Origin: Hyphomicrobiales bacterium
Lineage (GTDB): Bacteria; Pseudomonadota; Alphaproteobacteria; Rhizobiales; JACESI01
Assembly: GCA_039973685.1 (NCBI GenBank)
Contig: JBDWKL010000001.1
Coordinates: 1-36,366, forward strand
Reading direction: 5' to 3'
DNA: 36,366 nucleotides
Part shown: positions 30,437 through 36,366 of the stretch, piece after piece
Layout of the letters: every line of letters begins with the position of its first letter
Numbering within the stretch: the first letter of the stretch is position 1
Notes under the pieces: generated by a model
Databases searched by the model: none
Told to the model about the DNA's origin: nothing
What the model saw: only the letters and a program-made list of their open reading frames with translations
Position numbers and translations under genes: made by a program

Positions 30437-31594
30437 ATGTCCAATAATCTTGCATTATCGGACGTTTATCGATACTCTTCTGGGATGCCTAACAATCATA
30501 CCAAAAACAATGAAATATCGAGCGCAGAGGCCATTGCCCCGTCAAACTCTGCTGACGTCGACGAGAGAACTCATTCTCACCAGAACACCATCAGTGTTCC
30601 AGACTCTGTAGCCCCCTCCAGTTCGCTAGAGCGGTTAGCGGAAACAGCGCGTGAATACGCTGAGAAAGCCACCGCTGACAACACCAACAAAGCATACAGC
30701 AAAGACTGGGCGCACTTTTCAAGCTGGTGCCGCCGACGTGGTGCTGATGCTCTCCGACCAGACCCGCAACTAGTCGGGCTTTACATCACCGAATGCGCCG
30801 CCCCGCAAGATGGCTCCCCTGCCCTATCAGTCACCACCATTGAACGACGCCTCTCTGGTCTTTCATGGAACTACCAACAACGTGGGCAAACACTCGATCG
30901 CAAAGACCGCCACATTGCAACGGTGCTTGCGGGCATTAAAAGGCAGCACAGCAAGCCACCTGTCCAAAAAGAACCCATTTCGCCAGACGAGCTCATCGAG
31001 ATGGTGTCACAGCTCTCATTCGGCCTCAGAGACATGCGCGACAGAGCAATCCTGCTAATCGGATACGCTGGCGGCCTCAGACGCTCTGAAATCGTAAACC
31101 TCGACGTCAATCGCGACGACACAGAAGACGGCAAGGGCTGGGTCGAAATTGAGGATGGTGGCGCTATCATCATCCAGCGCACAAAAACAGGGTGGAAAGA
31201 AGCTGAGATCGCCAGAGGGTCATCAGACCAAACCTGCCCTATTCATGCGTTAGAGCAATGGCTGCATTTCGCCAAGATCGCCCACGGCCCCATCTTCCGT
31301 CGTGTGACGCGGGATAATTCAGGCGTTCAAGCAGATCGCCTATCTGACAAGCACATTGCCCGACTGATCAAACGCACCATGCTCAAAGCCGATCTGCGGC
31401 CAGATATTCCAGATGCAGAGCGTGCAAAGCTTTTCTCTGGACACTCTTTACGCGCTGGCCTTGCCTCATATGCCGATGTCGATGAGCGCCACATACAAAA
31501 ACAACTAGGACACGCCTCCCCGCAAATGACACGACGCTATCAAAGGCGCAAAGACCGCTTCAAAGTGAATCTCACAAAAGCAGCAGGACTGTAA
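30437..31594 (+). CDS. Tyrosine-type site-specific recombinase/integrase
   Basis: A 385-aa phage-integrase-family recombinase. The N-terminal SAM-like core-binding domain runs about 68-175 ('YAEKATADNTNKAYSKDWAHFSSWC'). The catalytic domain has Arg215/216 in 'GGLRRSEI', Lys250 in 'QRTKTGWK', His336-x-x-Arg339 in 'GHSLRAG', His359 in 'KQLGHASP', and the nucleophile Tyr368 in 'TRRYQRR', so it should be active. The first 60 residues are low-complexity; ATG 30485 is an alternative that would leave the palindrome at 30439-30463 outside the gene. No ribosome site is clear for either. It is divergent from DUF1403-scpB. A multimer-resolution role for the replicon is inferred. Confidence 0.88.
   Translation: MSNNLALSDVYRYSSGMPNNHTKNNEISSAEAIAPSNSADVDERTHSHQNTISVPDSVAPSSSLERLAETAREYAEKATADNTNKAYSKDWAHFSSWCRRRGADALRPDPQLVGLYITECAAPQDGSPALSVTTIERRLSGLSWNYQQRGQTLDRKDRHIATVLAGIKRQHSKPPVQKEPISPDELIEMVSQLSFGLRDMRDRAILLIGYAGGLRRSEIVNLDVNRDDTEDGKGWVEIEDGGAIIIQRTKTGWKEAEIARGSSDQTCPIHALEQWLHFAKIAHGPIFRRVTRDNSGVQADRLSDKHIARLIKRTMLKADLRPDIPDAERAKLFSGHSLRAGLASYADVDERHIQKQLGHASPQMTRRYQRRKDRFKVNLTKAAGL
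30439..30463. promoter_or_regulatory. 25-bp imperfect palindrome at the recombinase start
   Basis: GTCCAATAAT (30439-30448) and ATTATCGGAC (30454-30463) match as inverted arms at 9 of 10 positions around CTTGC. Outer arms ATAAAC (30422-30427) and GTTTAT (30464-30469) extend it. Arm length and central spacer resemble both a repressor site and a tyrosine-recombinase core site. Confidence 0.45.
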
Positions 31595-31606
31595 ACTCCC
31601 CTTATC

Positions 31607-31747
31607 TCACTTCAAAATCAGTGAAACCACATCCAGTTCGTCGCAAAGCCGCTCCTTCTGCATGTTCTGATCCAACCGGATCTCTAGCTTCCCGTGAGGC
31701 TCGCTTAATTTAAGTGCCCATATGCGCATTTGGGTGCGACGTCTCAT
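31607..31747 (-). CDS. Small hypothetical protein (46 aa) downstream of repC
   Basis: A 47-codon frame on the repC strand begins at ATG 31747, 35 bp after the repC stop, and ends with TGA at 31609-31607. The peptide is basic at its start ('MRRRTQMRIWALKL') and amphipathic later ('KLEIRLDQNMQKERLCDEL'). It does not overlap the convergent recombinase gene. No ribosome site is evident and I recognise no family. It could be a coupled gene or chance. Confidence 0.4.
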   Translation of the reverse strand: MRRRTQMRIWALKLSEPHGKLEIRLDQNMQKERLCDELDVVSLILK

Positions 31748-31781
31748 TGGGTTAGTCTATCAATAAAGCCAAGCCTCCATC

Positions 31782-33065
31782 CTATAAACTATCTAGCATA
31801 GCTTTTATCGATAATTTTCCAATCTCGGCGCGTTCCGTTAGCGTCCGCAAATAGCCACCAGGCGATTTTATTTCATCGTAACGTTCTAAAATATACGCTA
31901 ATACGACAATCGCCGGAATATCGCCCATTTTACGCTTCGCATTTTCCCAAGCGTCGGCGGATATTCCAAGCATCGGTCGAACCAAATGCCCCGCCGCTTT
32001 TGCATCTACCCAATTAGAAAGGCCGCTTGGTGCATAAGCCGCAAATTCTGGGCAACATATTTCAAATTTTCTCAGGCTTAATTGATATTCCCTTGGATTA
32101 GCTTCAGTTTCAAGTTCGTATTCATCTAATTTATAATCGGAATCCTGCCGCCCGCTCGACTTCAAATTGTCTATACTCTTTTCAAAAATAGATTCTGTTT
32201 TTGAATTATGAATATGACGCTCATTAATAACGCCATTGGCGCTCATATTTATATTTTCTATTACTTCGTCATCGATAACTCCTACACCGTCATCTTCCAG
32301 ATCAAGCTGATCCAACCATAACTCTTCAATTTCAGCCTGGAGTTGGGTAAGGGCGATCTTTTTAGGCTCCAAGCTAATCAGAGGTTCATTTCTCGCTAAA
32401 CGGCCTGAGAGGGCATCTAAGCGGCCTTCGAAAGCCATCCATTCCTCTCTTGCAGCATTAGCTTTGCCGTCTTCAAAGGCTAAATCTACCAAACGGCGAC
32501 AATCACGAAGGAAAATCGTAATTTCCGCACGCAGTTTTTGGATCGTACGAAGCTCCGCATTAGCGACTTCTGCGTTGTCAAAAATTTCGGCGGCCATTAA
32601 TGCAAAGGGCGCGAGGTTAAATCCGAATGCTTGATCTATTCCCCCTGCCCCATTGCGGCGTGCATAACGCTTACCATTTGGACTATCACGGCGAATAATT
32701 AAGCCTGCCTTTACAAGAGCGGCCAAATGGCGGCGCAATGTCGCAGGGGCCATGCCACGGGTACGTCTTGAGAGTTCAATGTTAGATGGAAAAACAACAA
32801 TGTCTTCACGTCCATCCAGTTCAGGTGTTTGATGGAATGAAGCCAAGGCTTCTAAAACGGCTATCGTTCGATCAGAAAGTCCGAAAATCTTGCGCGCGTC
32901 AGTGAGCGCTCTCAATAAATCCCATTTATTGACCGCAGCATTTTCATTATCGCCGCCTTGCCCTTTTTCACGTTGGTTATTCAACCAAATTTGCCGCTCT
33001 AAAATGACCGCAGAAAATTTTCCGCCGCCAAATGGCGTCGTTATGTTGTTTTGTGAATGAGTCAT
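31782..33065 (-). CDS. repC: Replication initiator RepC
   Basis: A 427-aa repABC-family initiator. The N-terminal DNA-binding half has 'KWDLLRALTDARKIFGLSDRTIAVLEALASFHQ', 'VVFPSNIELSRRTRGMAPATLRRHLAALVKAGLI' (winged helix) and 'RRNGAGGIDQAFGFNLAPF', all standard RepC landmarks. The C-terminal domain (about 330-427) includes 'LRPMLGISADAWENAKRKMGDIPAIVVLAYILER'. RepC opens the origin, which in this family lies inside repC itself. The start codon has no ribosome site, consistent with control by the antisense RNA encoded just upstream. It is last of the repABC genes. Confidence 0.95.
   Translation of the reverse strand: MTHSQNNITTPFGGGKFSAVILERQIWLNNQREKGQGGDNENAAVNKWDLLRALTDARKIFGLSDRTIAVLEALASFHQTPELDGREDIVVFPSNIELSRRTRGMAPATLRRHLAALVKAGLIIRRDSPNGKRYARRNGAGGIDQAFGFNLAPFALMAAEIFDNAEVANAELRTIQKLRAEITIFLRDCRRLVDLAFEDGKANAAREEWMAFEGRLDALSGRLARNEPLISLEPKKIALTQLQAEIEELWLDQLDLEDDGVGVIDDEVIENINMSANGVINERHIHNSKTESIFEKSIDNLKSSGRQDSDYKLDEYELETEANPREYQLSLRKFEICCPEFAAYAPSGLSNWVDAKAAGHLVRPMLGISADAWENAKRKMGDIPAIVVLAYILERYDEIKSPGGYLRTLTERAEIGKLSIKAMLDSL
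32160..32275. other. Probable replication origin (AT-rich core inside repC)
   Basis: A markedly AT-rich stretch lies in the middle of repC, encoding the linker between its two domains. It includes runs such as TTTTCAAAAATAGATTCTG and CATATTTATATTTTCTATTA and an inverted pair GCGCTC/ near AATGGC. In characterised repABC replicons the origin maps to the AT-rich centre of repC, so this is the expected site. The exact boundaries are inferred. Confidence 0.5.
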
Positions 33066-33156
33066 ATCAATCAGGCAAAGAAAATACGCTCTGAGACATT
33101 GAAATTGATGTCACAGTCTTGACTTTATTGCACGGAAGTGATTCTTTCATATTGCT

Positions 33157-33206
33157 ACAGATGAAGAGGGCTTCCGAAGATTTCGTGTCATTAGGGGGCC
33201 TTTTTC
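33157..33206 (+). ncRNA. ctRNA, antisense RNA controlling repC
   Basis: The repB-repC gap of repABC replicons encodes a short RNA antisense to the repC leader. Here, opposite repC, there is a promoter-like TTGACT (33119-33124) with an indistinct -10. It is followed by a terminator stem AGGGCTTCC/GGGGGCCTT (33167-33175 and 33194-33202; 9 bp, three G-T pairs) and a T-run to 33205. A start near 33157 gives about 50 nt, close to known ctRNAs. A small CGAA-GAT-TTCG hairpin sits in the loop. The start point is estimated. Confidence 0.6.
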
Positions 33207-33267
33207 TTTGCGCGTTTCCTTTCTCTTTCGTTGTTGCTTCTGTTTACTCAGTACTCAAAATTCACGC

Positions 33268-33283
33268 GTTGACATCTGTCAAC
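33268..33283. other. parS site (centromere-like) after repB
   Basis: GTTGACATCTGTCAAC has perfect 7-bp arms and differs from the repABC parS consensus GTTGACAGCTGTCAAC by one central base. It lies 10 bp past the repB stop, in the repB-repC gap. RepB should bind it for partition and perhaps for control of repC. Confidence 0.85.
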
Positions 33284-33293
33284 AATCACGAAT

Positions 33294-34292
33294 TCAATTC
33301 TTCTTTTCAAATGCAGTCAAAAGGCTGGGTAACTCCTGTGCCAAATAATCAGCGAATCCATCAGGTGCCGCCTTATTGAGAGTCAGCACCCTGCCCTTTT
33401 TCTCTGCAAGCGCGCGACCATCTTTGGTTTTCACAAATGTTGATGGAACTTTATTCTGAGGCTTCGACAATCGATCAACGATCAATTTAAAACGCTCATC
33501 AGATACCGCCATTTCAAAGGTAGATTTGGCTATCTCATTATTCGCTTTTTCGATGTTGGATTGTATAGACAAGAGATCACCAAGTGCTAGCCACCGTGGA
33601 CGCCCTATTTTCGGTGCAGGACCAATGGCGCGAACAAAGCGAATAGGGATAGCCTCCGCAACTTGCAACAATCTGGTCATTTCAGATTTATGCACCCCAA
33701 GGGCAGATTGAACGGTTGCACGGTCTATCCCGTGGTCGGCCAGTCCCTTAGCAAAATACGCCCGCTCAATAAAAGACAAGTCGCGGCGATCGCCATTCTC
33801 TCTGCCTTGTGCAAGCACTAATTCGTCGTCGGAAAGTTCTCTGACAACAGCATCAACGTTCAGCCTAAGTTCTTGAGCCGCTTTAATGCGCCGATGGCCA
33901 TAGGCCGCTTGGAAAAGGCCGCCATCCCGTTTGGTTTTATCTGGATGGGGCCTAACCAGTACAGGCACTTGTTGTCCGCCATCTTGAATGCTTTTCTTTA
34001 GCTCTTCAAATTGCGGGTCATGAACCGCGCCATCAGATAGCCGATCGCTCACAAGAGCGGGCTCTATCAAAGCTGGATCAAGCGATTGAACGCCCGTTAT
34101 CACCTCTATCTCGCTTTCTTTCTTCAACCCATCAAGCGATAAACCCATTGCACGGACAGCGCCGGAAGGTCGATGTTTAGGCGAAGTAGATGTAGTTACA
34201 GATGCTGGTGAGGGCTTGTTTTGACCTGGTGCAGTTTCACCAATATCAACACCGCTCAATAATTCTTTCAATCTATCGCGACGTTTACTCAT
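33294..34292 (-). CDS. repB: Plasmid partition protein RepB (ParB family)
   Basis: A 332-aa ParB-like centromere-binding protein. The N-terminus has the RepA-interaction segment 'SKRRDRLKELLSGV'. The ParB/Srx domain contains 'IQDGGQQVPVLVRPHPD' and the CTP-box-like 'AAYGHRRIKAAQEL' near 135, followed by 'GRENGDRRDLSFIERAYFAKGL'. The helix-turn-helix is 'TVQSALGVHKSEMTRLLQVAEAI' near 190. It should load on the two parS sites seen at 33268 and 34468. The ATG overlaps the stop of the 39-aa ORF by 4 bp (ATGA). Stop is followed by a parS and the ctRNA region. Confidence 0.95.
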   Translation of the reverse strand: MSKRRDRLKELLSGVDIGETAPGQNKPSPASVTTSTSPKHRPSGAVRAMGLSLDGLKKESEIEVITGVQSLDPALIEPALVSDRLSDGAVHDPQFEELKKSIQDGGQQVPVLVRPHPDKTKRDGGLFQAAYGHRRIKAAQELRLNVDAVVRELSDDELVLAQGRENGDRRDLSFIERAYFAKGLADHGIDRATVQSALGVHKSEMTRLLQVAEAIPIRFVRAIGPAPKIGRPRWLALGDLLSIQSNIEKANNEIAKSTFEMAVSDERFKLIVDRLSKPQNKVPSTFVKTKDGRALAEKKGRVLTLNKAAPDGFADYLAQELPSLLTAFEKKN

Positions 34293-34408
34293 TGTTTCAC
34301 CGCTTTATCAAAAGTACATGTCGCCAGAGTAAAACCTGCAAACTTCCAAATTTCATCAAACGAAATAGTGACAGTGGGGCAGGGTATATTGAGCTTAGAA
34401 CTATCCAT
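34289..34408 (-). CDS. 39-aa ORF translationally coupled between repA and repB
   Basis: ATG 34408 shares a base with the repA stop (TAATG) and the TGA at 34291-34289 overlaps the repB ATG (ATGA). The frame therefore fills the 115-bp repA-repB gap exactly. The peptide starts 'MDSSKLNIPCPTVTISFDEI' and ends with 'FDKAVKQ'; it has two Cys and no evident membrane segment. A small repD gene between repA and repB is known from some Ti plasmids, but I cannot claim homology. Both overlaps argue for real translation, at least to hand ribosomes to repB. Confidence 0.65.
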   Translation of the reverse strand: MDSSKLNIPCPTVTISFDEIWKFAGFTLATCTFDKAVKQ

Positions 34409-35619
34409 TATGCCCCATCCTTAGTTGTCCGGCCCCATGCTTCATGCATAAGGCTTTCAATCTCATTGTTGACAGCTGTCAACGCTTCCAAGGCACGATC
34501 ATAAGTGGCGCGGTGGAAATTCTCCCTGCCTACTTCATAAAGTGTTTGTTTCGTGAGGCCTGCATCAGAAATAGCAGTGGACTTCACCATTGGAGCAGTT
34601 AGCACCCGGTCGGCAAACTGGGCGCGCAAAAAACCTGAAATTTGGGTTTGTGGCCCATCTTGCGGTTCATAGCGTGTGATCAAATACCGCATAAAGTCAA
34701 AATTAAGCGTACCACCGGCAGCACTAACGACACTTAGTAAATCCGCCGTCATAAACAGGAATTGGCTCATAGAAGCCACGTCCAACATTTGAGGGTGCAC
34801 GGTTACCAAAACAGAAGTTGCGGCACAAAGAGCACCAAGTGTGAGGTAGCCAAGTTGAGGCGGGCAATCAATCACCACCACATCGTAATTTTCTGCGACG
34901 TTTGCTAATGCAGTTTGTACGCGAGCAAAAAACATATCGGAAAGAGGCTCACTTTTATCCCGATGAACAAGATGTTGTGGGGTTGTATGTTCAAACTCTT
35001 GAAGCTCTAAATTACCGGGAACTAAATCAAGTCCATCAACATATGTCTCACGAATAATCTCACTAAGATCTCTGCGCTGCTCATCGTATCGAATGGCACC
35101 ATAGAGCGTATCATTTCCAGAAAGATCAATTTCTGGCTGATAGCCAAACAAAGCAGAAAGGGAGGCTTGCGGATCAAGATCCACAGCTAAAGTTCGGTAG
35201 CCTTGTAATGCCAGATGTTGGGCGAGGTGGGCGGTCGTTGTGGTTTTTCCAGAGCCACCCTTAAAATTAGTAACAGCGATCACCTGACAGTGTTCGCCAC
35301 CTTGGCGGTGCTTCACATAACTGCGCTGTTTCACTGACCCTGGTTTTTGCGCATCACCTAAATATGCCCGCAAGGCATTCACATCTTTTAAGGTATAAAG
35401 CCTGCGACCACGCGCATCCGTTTCAGGGGAGGGGCCTTCTCCGTTCAAAGCCAGTTGTCGTAAATAACCATCCGAAACACCAATCAATCGCGACGCTTCA
35501 CCCGATGTAAACGGGCGCAATTTCTTCTTTGATGTGGGAGGAAAAAGGCGCGCACGTAACAGGCTGAGTTGCTCAGAAAGCATTTCAGCATCTCGCGCAA
35601 TCAATTCATCTGCACCCAT
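34408..35619 (-). CDS. repA: Plasmid partition ATPase RepA (ParA family)
   Basis: A 403-aa ParA-type ATPase. The N-terminal domain has a helix-turn-helix, 'FTSGEASRLIGVSDGYLRQLALNGEGPSPET', with which RepA represses its own operon. The ATPase core has the deviant Walker A 'FKGGSGKTTTTAHLA', 'AVDLDPQASLSALFGYQPE', and Walker B 'DVVVIDCPPQLGYLTLGAL'. ATG 35619 (MGADEL) is chosen because AAAAGGG lies 7 bp upstream and gives the usual RepA length; a TTG at 35721 would add 34 residues without a ribosome site. It is first of repABC. A parS site lies within its 3' end. Confidence 0.95.
   Translation of the reverse strand: MGADELIARDAEMLSEQLSLLRARLFPPTSKKKLRPFTSGEASRLIGVSDGYLRQLALNGEGPSPETDARGRRLYTLKDVNALRAYLGDAQKPGSVKQRSYVKHRQGGEHCQVIAVTNFKGGSGKTTTTAHLAQHLALQGYRTLAVDLDPQASLSALFGYQPEIDLSGNDTLYGAIRYDEQRRDLSEIIRETYVDGLDLVPGNLELQEFEHTTPQHLVHRDKSEPLSDMFFARVQTALANVAENYDVVVIDCPPQLGYLTLGALCAATSVLVTVHPQMLDVASMSQFLFMTADLLSVVSAAGGTLNFDFMRYLITRYEPQDGPQTQISGFLRAQFADRVLTAPMVKSTAISDAGLTKQTLYEVGRENFHRATYDRALEALTAVNNEIESLMHEAWGRTTKDGA
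34468..34483. other. parS site inside the 3' end of repA
   Basis: GTTGACAGCTGTCAAC is a perfect 16-bp palindrome identical to the consensus parS of repABC replicons. It lies within the last 25 codons of repA, so RepB loading here could also affect transcription into repB and repC. Confidence 0.93.
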
Positions 35620-35771
35620 ACCATACCCTTTTGGCCCAACCAGCCGTTTATTCTTAGCGCTATTCCCAACAATTATGATGGGATTCGCAGATTTTACCAA
35701 ATGACTGACGTCTATACTCAAAACCGCGCAAAAACAGTCGCTTAACAGAAATAACCACTAGAAGCGGACAA

Positions 35772-35783
35772 TTGACGCGTCAA
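35772..35783. promoter_or_regulatory. Palindrome TTGACGCGTCAA, candidate RepA operator
   Basis: A perfect 12-bp palindrome lies about 150 bp upstream of the repA ATG (50 bp from the alternative TTG). Its TTGAC/GTCAA half-sites equal those of parS but are 2 bp rather than 4-6 bp apart, so it is not a standard parS. An operator for RepA, or RepA with RepB, is likely by position. Confidence 0.45.
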
Positions 35784-35792
35784 CGCCAAAAG

Positions 35793-35815
35793 TTCCATTT
35801 ACGCTAAAATTGGAA
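35793..35815. promoter_or_regulatory. Imperfect palindrome upstream of repA
   Basis: TTCCA-TTTA (35793-35801) mirrors TAAAAT-TGGAA (35805-35815) with a one-base bulge. It adjoins the 12-bp palindrome, a setting typical for the RepA operator and repABC promoter. Confidence 0.35.
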
Positions 35816-36275
35816 GATACGCTACCTCACCGTAATTACCTCAGAAACAGCGAGTCGCGTCAAGCATTTTATAGTTAATGGGAATTAACCAATTAAGAAG
35901 AAGGAAACGCATCAAATACCAAGGCTTCCACCATCGACCTACAGAACAATTGATACTGATGTTGAAAACCCTCAATTACTCATACTTAGGCCAACAACCT
36001 GCTTAACTCGCCTGTTCGTCACCTTAACGCGCAGGGTGGGTTGGAATTCAGCGCCAGGGATAAAATGTGAAACACTTTGTTTTCATTAATTTAACATTAA
36101 ATTGACAACATAAAAACCACAATACAAATAAATATACCGTTAACTATTAATAAAATACAAATAGTGACAAGCATCATTTAACCATATTACTACATTACAA
36201 ATATTTCTATACATATGTAAATAAAATATACGTCTTTTTTTATTAGGTTTGACCTCTGATTGATGGGGAAAATCT

Positions 36276-36366
36276 ATGGATCGCGACGAGATAAACGGCT
36301 TTAACTGGCATAAAATAGCAATCGATTATGATAAAATTTCTGACGAATATTCAGGAAACGGCATCA
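36276..36366 (+). CDS. Hypothetical protein, N-terminal fragment
   Basis: ATG 36276 follows TGGGGAA by 6 bp and opens a frame that runs off the right edge after 30 codons (MDRDEINGFNWHKIAIDYDK...). The start is acidic, with alternating Asp/Tyr and Lys, and has no signal peptide. I recognise no family. It lies in the same orientation as the recombinase and points away from repABC. Confidence 0.5.
   Translation, partial: MDRDEINGFNWHKIAIDYDKISDEYSGNGI

Follow-up and report, generated by a model that had tools for sequence, protein, structure and literature searches.

A short open reading frame as a probable ribosome bridge between repA and repB of a Hyphomicrobiales repABC operon

The direct and closest known precedent for the reading frame analysed here is the repD gene of Ti plasmids pTiR10 and pTiC58. 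This short ORF separates repA from repB and is reported to be both transcribed and translated. The repD protein is seemingly uninvolved in replication or partition, and repD has been proposed to secure the expression of repB and repC (PMC6090056, PMC4231840, PMC6546132). A recent review describes short ORFs whose use is to supply the following gene with ribosomes, e.g. the mycobacterial MIRUs, which are coupled to that gene at a spacing of -4 nt and encode a peptide that is not thought to be important (PMC12548453). In reporter experiments on six native gene pairs, a stop-to-start gap of about 20 nt almost abolished coupling by reinitiation (PMC10666635). In the gap between repB and repC, an antisense RNA that controls repC has been placed (PMC6090056).

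The window, i.e. the whole stretch of 36,366 nucleotides of Hyphomicrobiales DNA that was analysed, contains a complete repABC operon, in which repA, repB and repC follow one another on the same strand, all three scoring above curated cut-offs. The relevant features are as follows.

34408..35619, minus strand: repA, ParA-type partition ATPase (TIGR03453, 637.7 bits, cut-off 348.45)
34468..34483, no strand: putative parS palindrome GTTGACAGCTGTCAAC within the repA 3´ end, where it encodes LTAVN (palindrome scan)
34418..34423, minus strand: Shine-Dalgarno sequence TAAGGA of the bridging ORF, within the 3´ end of repA (-8.7 kcal/mol for the stretch containing it)
34408..34289, minus strand: bridging ORF of 39 codons, ATG to TGA, with TAATG and ATGA overlaps
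34297..34301, minus strand: weak repB Shine-Dalgarno sequence GGTGA, within the bridging ORF (-3.2 kcal/mol for the stretch containing it)
33294..34292, minus strand: repB, ParB-type partition protein (TIGR03454, 291.2 bits, cut-off 201.5)
33268..33283, no strand: parS-like sequence GTTGACATCTGTCAAC with a single mismatch, between repB and repC and just after repB (found by eye, letters confirmed)
31782..33065, minus strand: repC, replication initiator (NF040974, 368.3 bits, cut-off 150; Pfam RP-C and RP-C_C)

The start of repA is an ATG, with a TTG at 35721 as the alternative. Duplex energies were calculated against the anti-Shine-Dalgarno sequence. The initial annotation had described a 39-aa ORF fitted exactly between repA and repB and overlapping both, and this description is borne out by the sequence: the ORF (product MDSSKLNIPCPTVTISFDEIWKFAGFTLATCTFDKAVKQ) occupies 34408..34289 on the minus strand in a repA-repB gap of 115 nt, its ATG has one base in common with the TAA of repA (TAATG), and its TGA overlaps the ATG of repB (ATGA). 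It has the traits of a reinitiation bridge, with a start that overlaps the upstream stop, a stop that overlaps the downstream start, and a ribosome-binding site of its own (TAAGGA, 9 nt upstream of the ATG). A palindrome scan, for which the parS consensus was taken from PMC9040568, returned a single site in the window, at 34468-34483; the centre rule of the scan misses the copy at 33268-33283. The scan found no parS in the repA-repB gap, and the one-mismatch copy is also located outside it.

The window ORF resembles repD in its position, as both separate repA from repB within a repABC operon. The comparison is with the published description of repD, by which repD has two RepB-binding parS sites, whereas the window ORF has none and parS is found in the 3´ end of repA. 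The MIRUs offer a likeness in that they, too, are short frames coupled to the next gene, but they are described as repeats with apparent mobility, inserting at start codons (PMC12548453), whereas no convincing second copy of the window gap was found in the window or the fetched loci. Directly overlapping repA/repB junctions share the operon and the presumed coupling with the window but have no intervening frame.

We consider it likely that the ORF is a termination-reinitiation bridge that ties translation of RepB to that of RepA. Ribosomes ending repA would reinitiate immediately at the overlapping ATG of the bridging ORF, read its 39 codons, terminate on the ATG of repB, and begin translation anew from that ATG. 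RepB output would thereby be held to RepA output over the 115-nt gap, and the transcript would stay covered by ribosomes throughout. The selected property would be the open frame with its matched ends rather than the peptide. Because a spacing of about 20 nt nearly ends coupling in the six gene pairs (PMC10666635), a gap of 115 nt would need a translated bridge. We infer translation of the frame, and a lower RepB level once the frame is broken.

Taken by itself, the window ORF is weak evidence beyond chance and only suggestive: when the gap was shuffled by dinucleotides with flanks and length kept, 9.9% of the shuffles had a bridging frame. Its codon usage is ambiguous, scoring 0.064 per codon: all 39-codon windows of repB score higher (minimum 0.081), and 96% of 410 stop-free shuffles score lower. 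A special RNA structure at the junction (34270-34430) was considered and rejected on the basis of a folding energy of z = +0.55 relative to shuffles, and Rfam gave no matches at gathering thresholds in 31000-36366. An origin of the gap by duplication was also rejected, as the window and the fetched loci contained only short matches and no convincing second copy.

A comparative set of repA-repB junctions was assembled from one genome scan, of which the best 80 of 222 loci were used, and from family, order and class searches; stretches were also added for 40 of 48 places listed without a locus. The window itself (L001), a place identical to L085 (L003) and two distant RepA relatives (L002 and L004) were removed by hand, leaving 151 loci with RepA. 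Starts of repB were assigned by rule, except those of L107 and L139, which were set by hand. Exclusion of three loci in which RepB was not found by the start rule (L066, L087 and L074), of four for which a start at -4 was listed and unmatched by the rule (L096, L101, L118 and L119), and of four duplicates resulted in 140 distinct junctions, a count that does not comprise L155-L163 and L164-L167. In two of the excluded loci, L066 and L087, a close repA is followed by a repC-like start about 415 nt on, and RepB was not found between them. A frame was scored as bridging if it started at -20 to +12 relative to the repA stop and ended at -6 to +12 relative to the repB start.

The junctions fall into two size classes. 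Short gaps of 26 nt or less are found in 95 of the 140 junctions (16 nt or less in 91, and 26 nt in the other four), including direct overlaps of 4 nt (41 junctions, the commonest value) and 1 nt (7 junctions). The remaining 45 have long gaps of 42-226 nt, and no gap of 27-41 nt occurs among the 140. The bridge criterion was applied to gaps of at least 42 nt. Small ORFs in other repA-repB gaps, which the initial annotation had proposed as a check, proved to be present far above chance: 40 of the 45 long gaps have a frame that bridges at both ends, where shuffles that preserve the flanks and the gap lengths would yield 15.5 (exact P = 2.7e-18). With one representative per similarity cluster, 16 of 18 are bridged and 5.9 are expected (exact P = 4.2e-8). 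A wider end window gave 45 of 48, before removal of duplicates and wrong starts. The gap/no-gap state changes about six times on a RepA tree made by a quick method without a mixture model and with the last 20 RepA residues excluded, and the 45 long gaps are therefore not independent events. The evidence is that the frame is retained while the sequence and the length of the gap diverge.

Five long gaps fell outside the criterion. In L104 and L147, a single ORF leaves an untranslated remainder of 26 and 16 nt, respectively; in L140, L142 and L143 the remainder is 0 nt and the frame ends 21 nt inside repB. Among the named plasmids kept apart from the count, L166 (Novosphingobium) has a tight bridge and L165 a direct overlap, and about 21 nt are left unbridged in pUSP3 of Aminobacter sp. 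MSH1 (L167), as judged by eye with a likely repB start also chosen by eye. In the latter record (2777-2999), the annotated TTG start of repB at 2999 seems too far downstream, and an ATG further upstream would, by eye, give repB the N-terminus MARKHLL. The junction of a plasmid from Hoeflea sp. IMCC20628 (L164, 862-1031) takes the form of a two-step relay, in which a 46-aa frame runs from the repA stop to an ATGA, and a 10-codon frame runs from that ATGA to a second one on the repB start. The gene tables of the three opened plasmid records with such a gap (L164, L166 and L167) hold no annotated feature between repA and repB, in agreement with the earlier surmise that frames of this kind are probably missed by annotation; the tables are stated to be incomplete, and that of L164 does not list repA itself.

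The gap between repB and repC served as a control, which covered those 68 of the 140 loci in which the start of repC could be assigned. This gap is 146-439 nt long in all 68 and is bridged in none, with 1.7 expected; the same holds for the 27 control loci that have a long repA-repB gap (0 of 27). The bridge is therefore a property of the repA-repB junction.

Bridging ORFs are preceded by Shine-Dalgarno sequences, with a median energy of -8.4 kcal/mol before the 40 ORFs compared with -1.9 before 584 internal ATGs of repA. Most of these sequences are located in the 3´ end of repA and could be remnants from ancestors in which repA and repB were coupled directly. Coupling of RepB to RepA may not be absolute, since the repB genes, too, possess Shine-Dalgarno sequences (median -9.6).

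The peptides encoded by the bridging ORFs vary widely. Their lengths range from 18 to 78 aa among relatives, and pN/pS is 0.85 in four close pairs (26 N, 10 S; N vs S P = 0.69), whereas in the identical pairs repA has a value of 0.03 and repB one of 0.10. The four were drawn from seven close pairs of gap ORFs, of which L006/L007 was omitted on account of indels and two of the three pairs among L122, L124 and L126 as non-independent. The initial annotation had held that an ORF broken in close relatives would speak against it. Of three congeners, only L085 has a close repA (RepA identity 80%), and it retains a bridge: its gap of 88 nt aligns with that of the window above shuffles (1 of 300 shuffles equally good), and its ORF begins beside the repA stop, ends on the repB start, and encodes a different peptide of 30 aa. 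In relatives, then, the frame is conserved and the peptide is not, and for the window itself the comparison is with this one congener. By these substitution counts, the evolution of the peptide in the four close pairs is near-neutral, with no apparent protein-level constraint. With 40 of the 45 long gaps bridged and a pN/pS of 0.85, it is therefore the open frame that is maintained, and not the protein. At synonymous sites, pooled, the gap ORFs have changed less (10 of 101 sites) than the flanking genes repA (152 of 554) and repB (259 of 1063), and this slower change suggests a constraint at the DNA level as well.

Such a constraint is what would be expected if the gap existed for cis-acting DNA, such as parS or DnaA-box-like sites, with an open frame that serves this purpose and a bridge that is secondary. 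repD of the Ti plasmids, with its two parS, would fit, and so would several relatives. Among the 60 loci nearest by RepA, a perfect parS is found in the gap in eight, all of which read LTAVN in the bridging frame, and bridging therefore makes room for a DNA site within the operon. As in the window, parS is in the coding 3´ end of repA in 27 of these 60 loci, among them one duplicate and three loci whose site has one mismatch. There the site starts 60-81 nt before the stop, and it reads LTAVN in the window and in L164; none of the 60 has both a gap site and a repA site. A second type of site, TTATCC[CA]C, occurs on the coding strand of 15 of the 45 long gaps, all among the 23 with a RepA identity of at least 73% (e.g. 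L085, L006, L009, L013, L017, L028, L031 and L086), by a search pattern, T[TA][AT]TCC[CA]C, that was devised after some gaps had been seen. In repA and repB themselves, with up to 1.7 kb scanned per junction, the background of this pattern is 0 per kb for the coding strand and 0.021 per kb for the opposite one. The site resembles the DnaA-box consensus. It is absent from the gap of the window, which has at most a degenerate counterpart. For comparison, DnaA boxes were reportedly not found in repC of p42d (PMC3155836). We regard the carriage of DNA sites as an unlikely primary explanation, as the gap of the window has neither parS nor a TTATCC-type site, and as such sites account for gaps in relatives and not for retention of the frame; they are compatible with a bridge and not opposed to it. 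In the 68-aa bridging frame of L106, LSGDN, LSPDN, LSADN and LSADN follow one another, as if the gap contained four copies of a palindromic site, representing another type of parS.

Less probable still is a functional small protein, in which the 39-aa peptide itself acts, e.g. by regulating partition or by partnering RepA or RepB. The ORF has a good Shine-Dalgarno sequence, and the literature mentions minigenes that encode peptides within repABC operons (PMC2783167, PMC4492784). Against it, the peptide has no Pfam match at E 1 and no NCBIfam match at 0.001; a tblastn search of 72,556 plasmid records gave one unrelated match (E 10), and the best match in 100 other genomes had an E of 0.07, none of them useful. 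The plasmid collection comprised 1995 records that match RepA at E 1e-100, and 318 Agrobacterium records matching RepA. The variation in length from 18 to 78 aa, the pN/pS in the four pairs, and the different peptide of the congener L085 also stand against this explanation. The earlier suggestion of a partition regulator similar to the repD product is thus not supported, both for want of a useful match to the 39 aa in the plasmid records and genomes searched and because the repD protein itself "seems" uninvolved in replication and partition (PMC6090056). A chance frame, i.e. a stop-free stretch of 115 nt with ends that fit by accident, is the most improbable of the alternatives, since about 10% of shuffles of the window gap do bridge but such an arrangement is present in 40 of the 45 long gaps, in 16 of the 18 clusters, and in 0 of 68 repB-repC gaps. 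The termination-reinitiation bridge, which the initial annotation had raised as an ORF that only couples translation, is the best-supported reading, in view of the retention of the frame in 40 of 45 long gaps, the Shine-Dalgarno sequences, and the lack of protein constraint in the four pairs.

In conclusion, the window ORF is a variant of the known repD-like arrangement, a bridge without parS, and the comparative rule is of greater interest. For repABC plasmids, we lean slightly towards a rule by which any DNA between repA and repB must be translated. We are just as modestly inclined to its corollary, that wherever repA and repB neither abut nor overlap, selection makes and keeps a bridge ORF, and that the gap between repB and repC stays untranslated to permit antisense control. 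In the open-access literature, outside which most subscription journals fall, we found no general bridging rule for repA-repB junctions. If the rule is true, bridge ORFs would be real, selected and translated genes without a functional protein, with repD as one case. They would provide a natural example of selected frames with irrelevant peptides, which bears on the annotation of small proteins. In a widespread family of plasmids, the RepA:RepB ratio would then be set by unbroken translation, with RepC kept apart.
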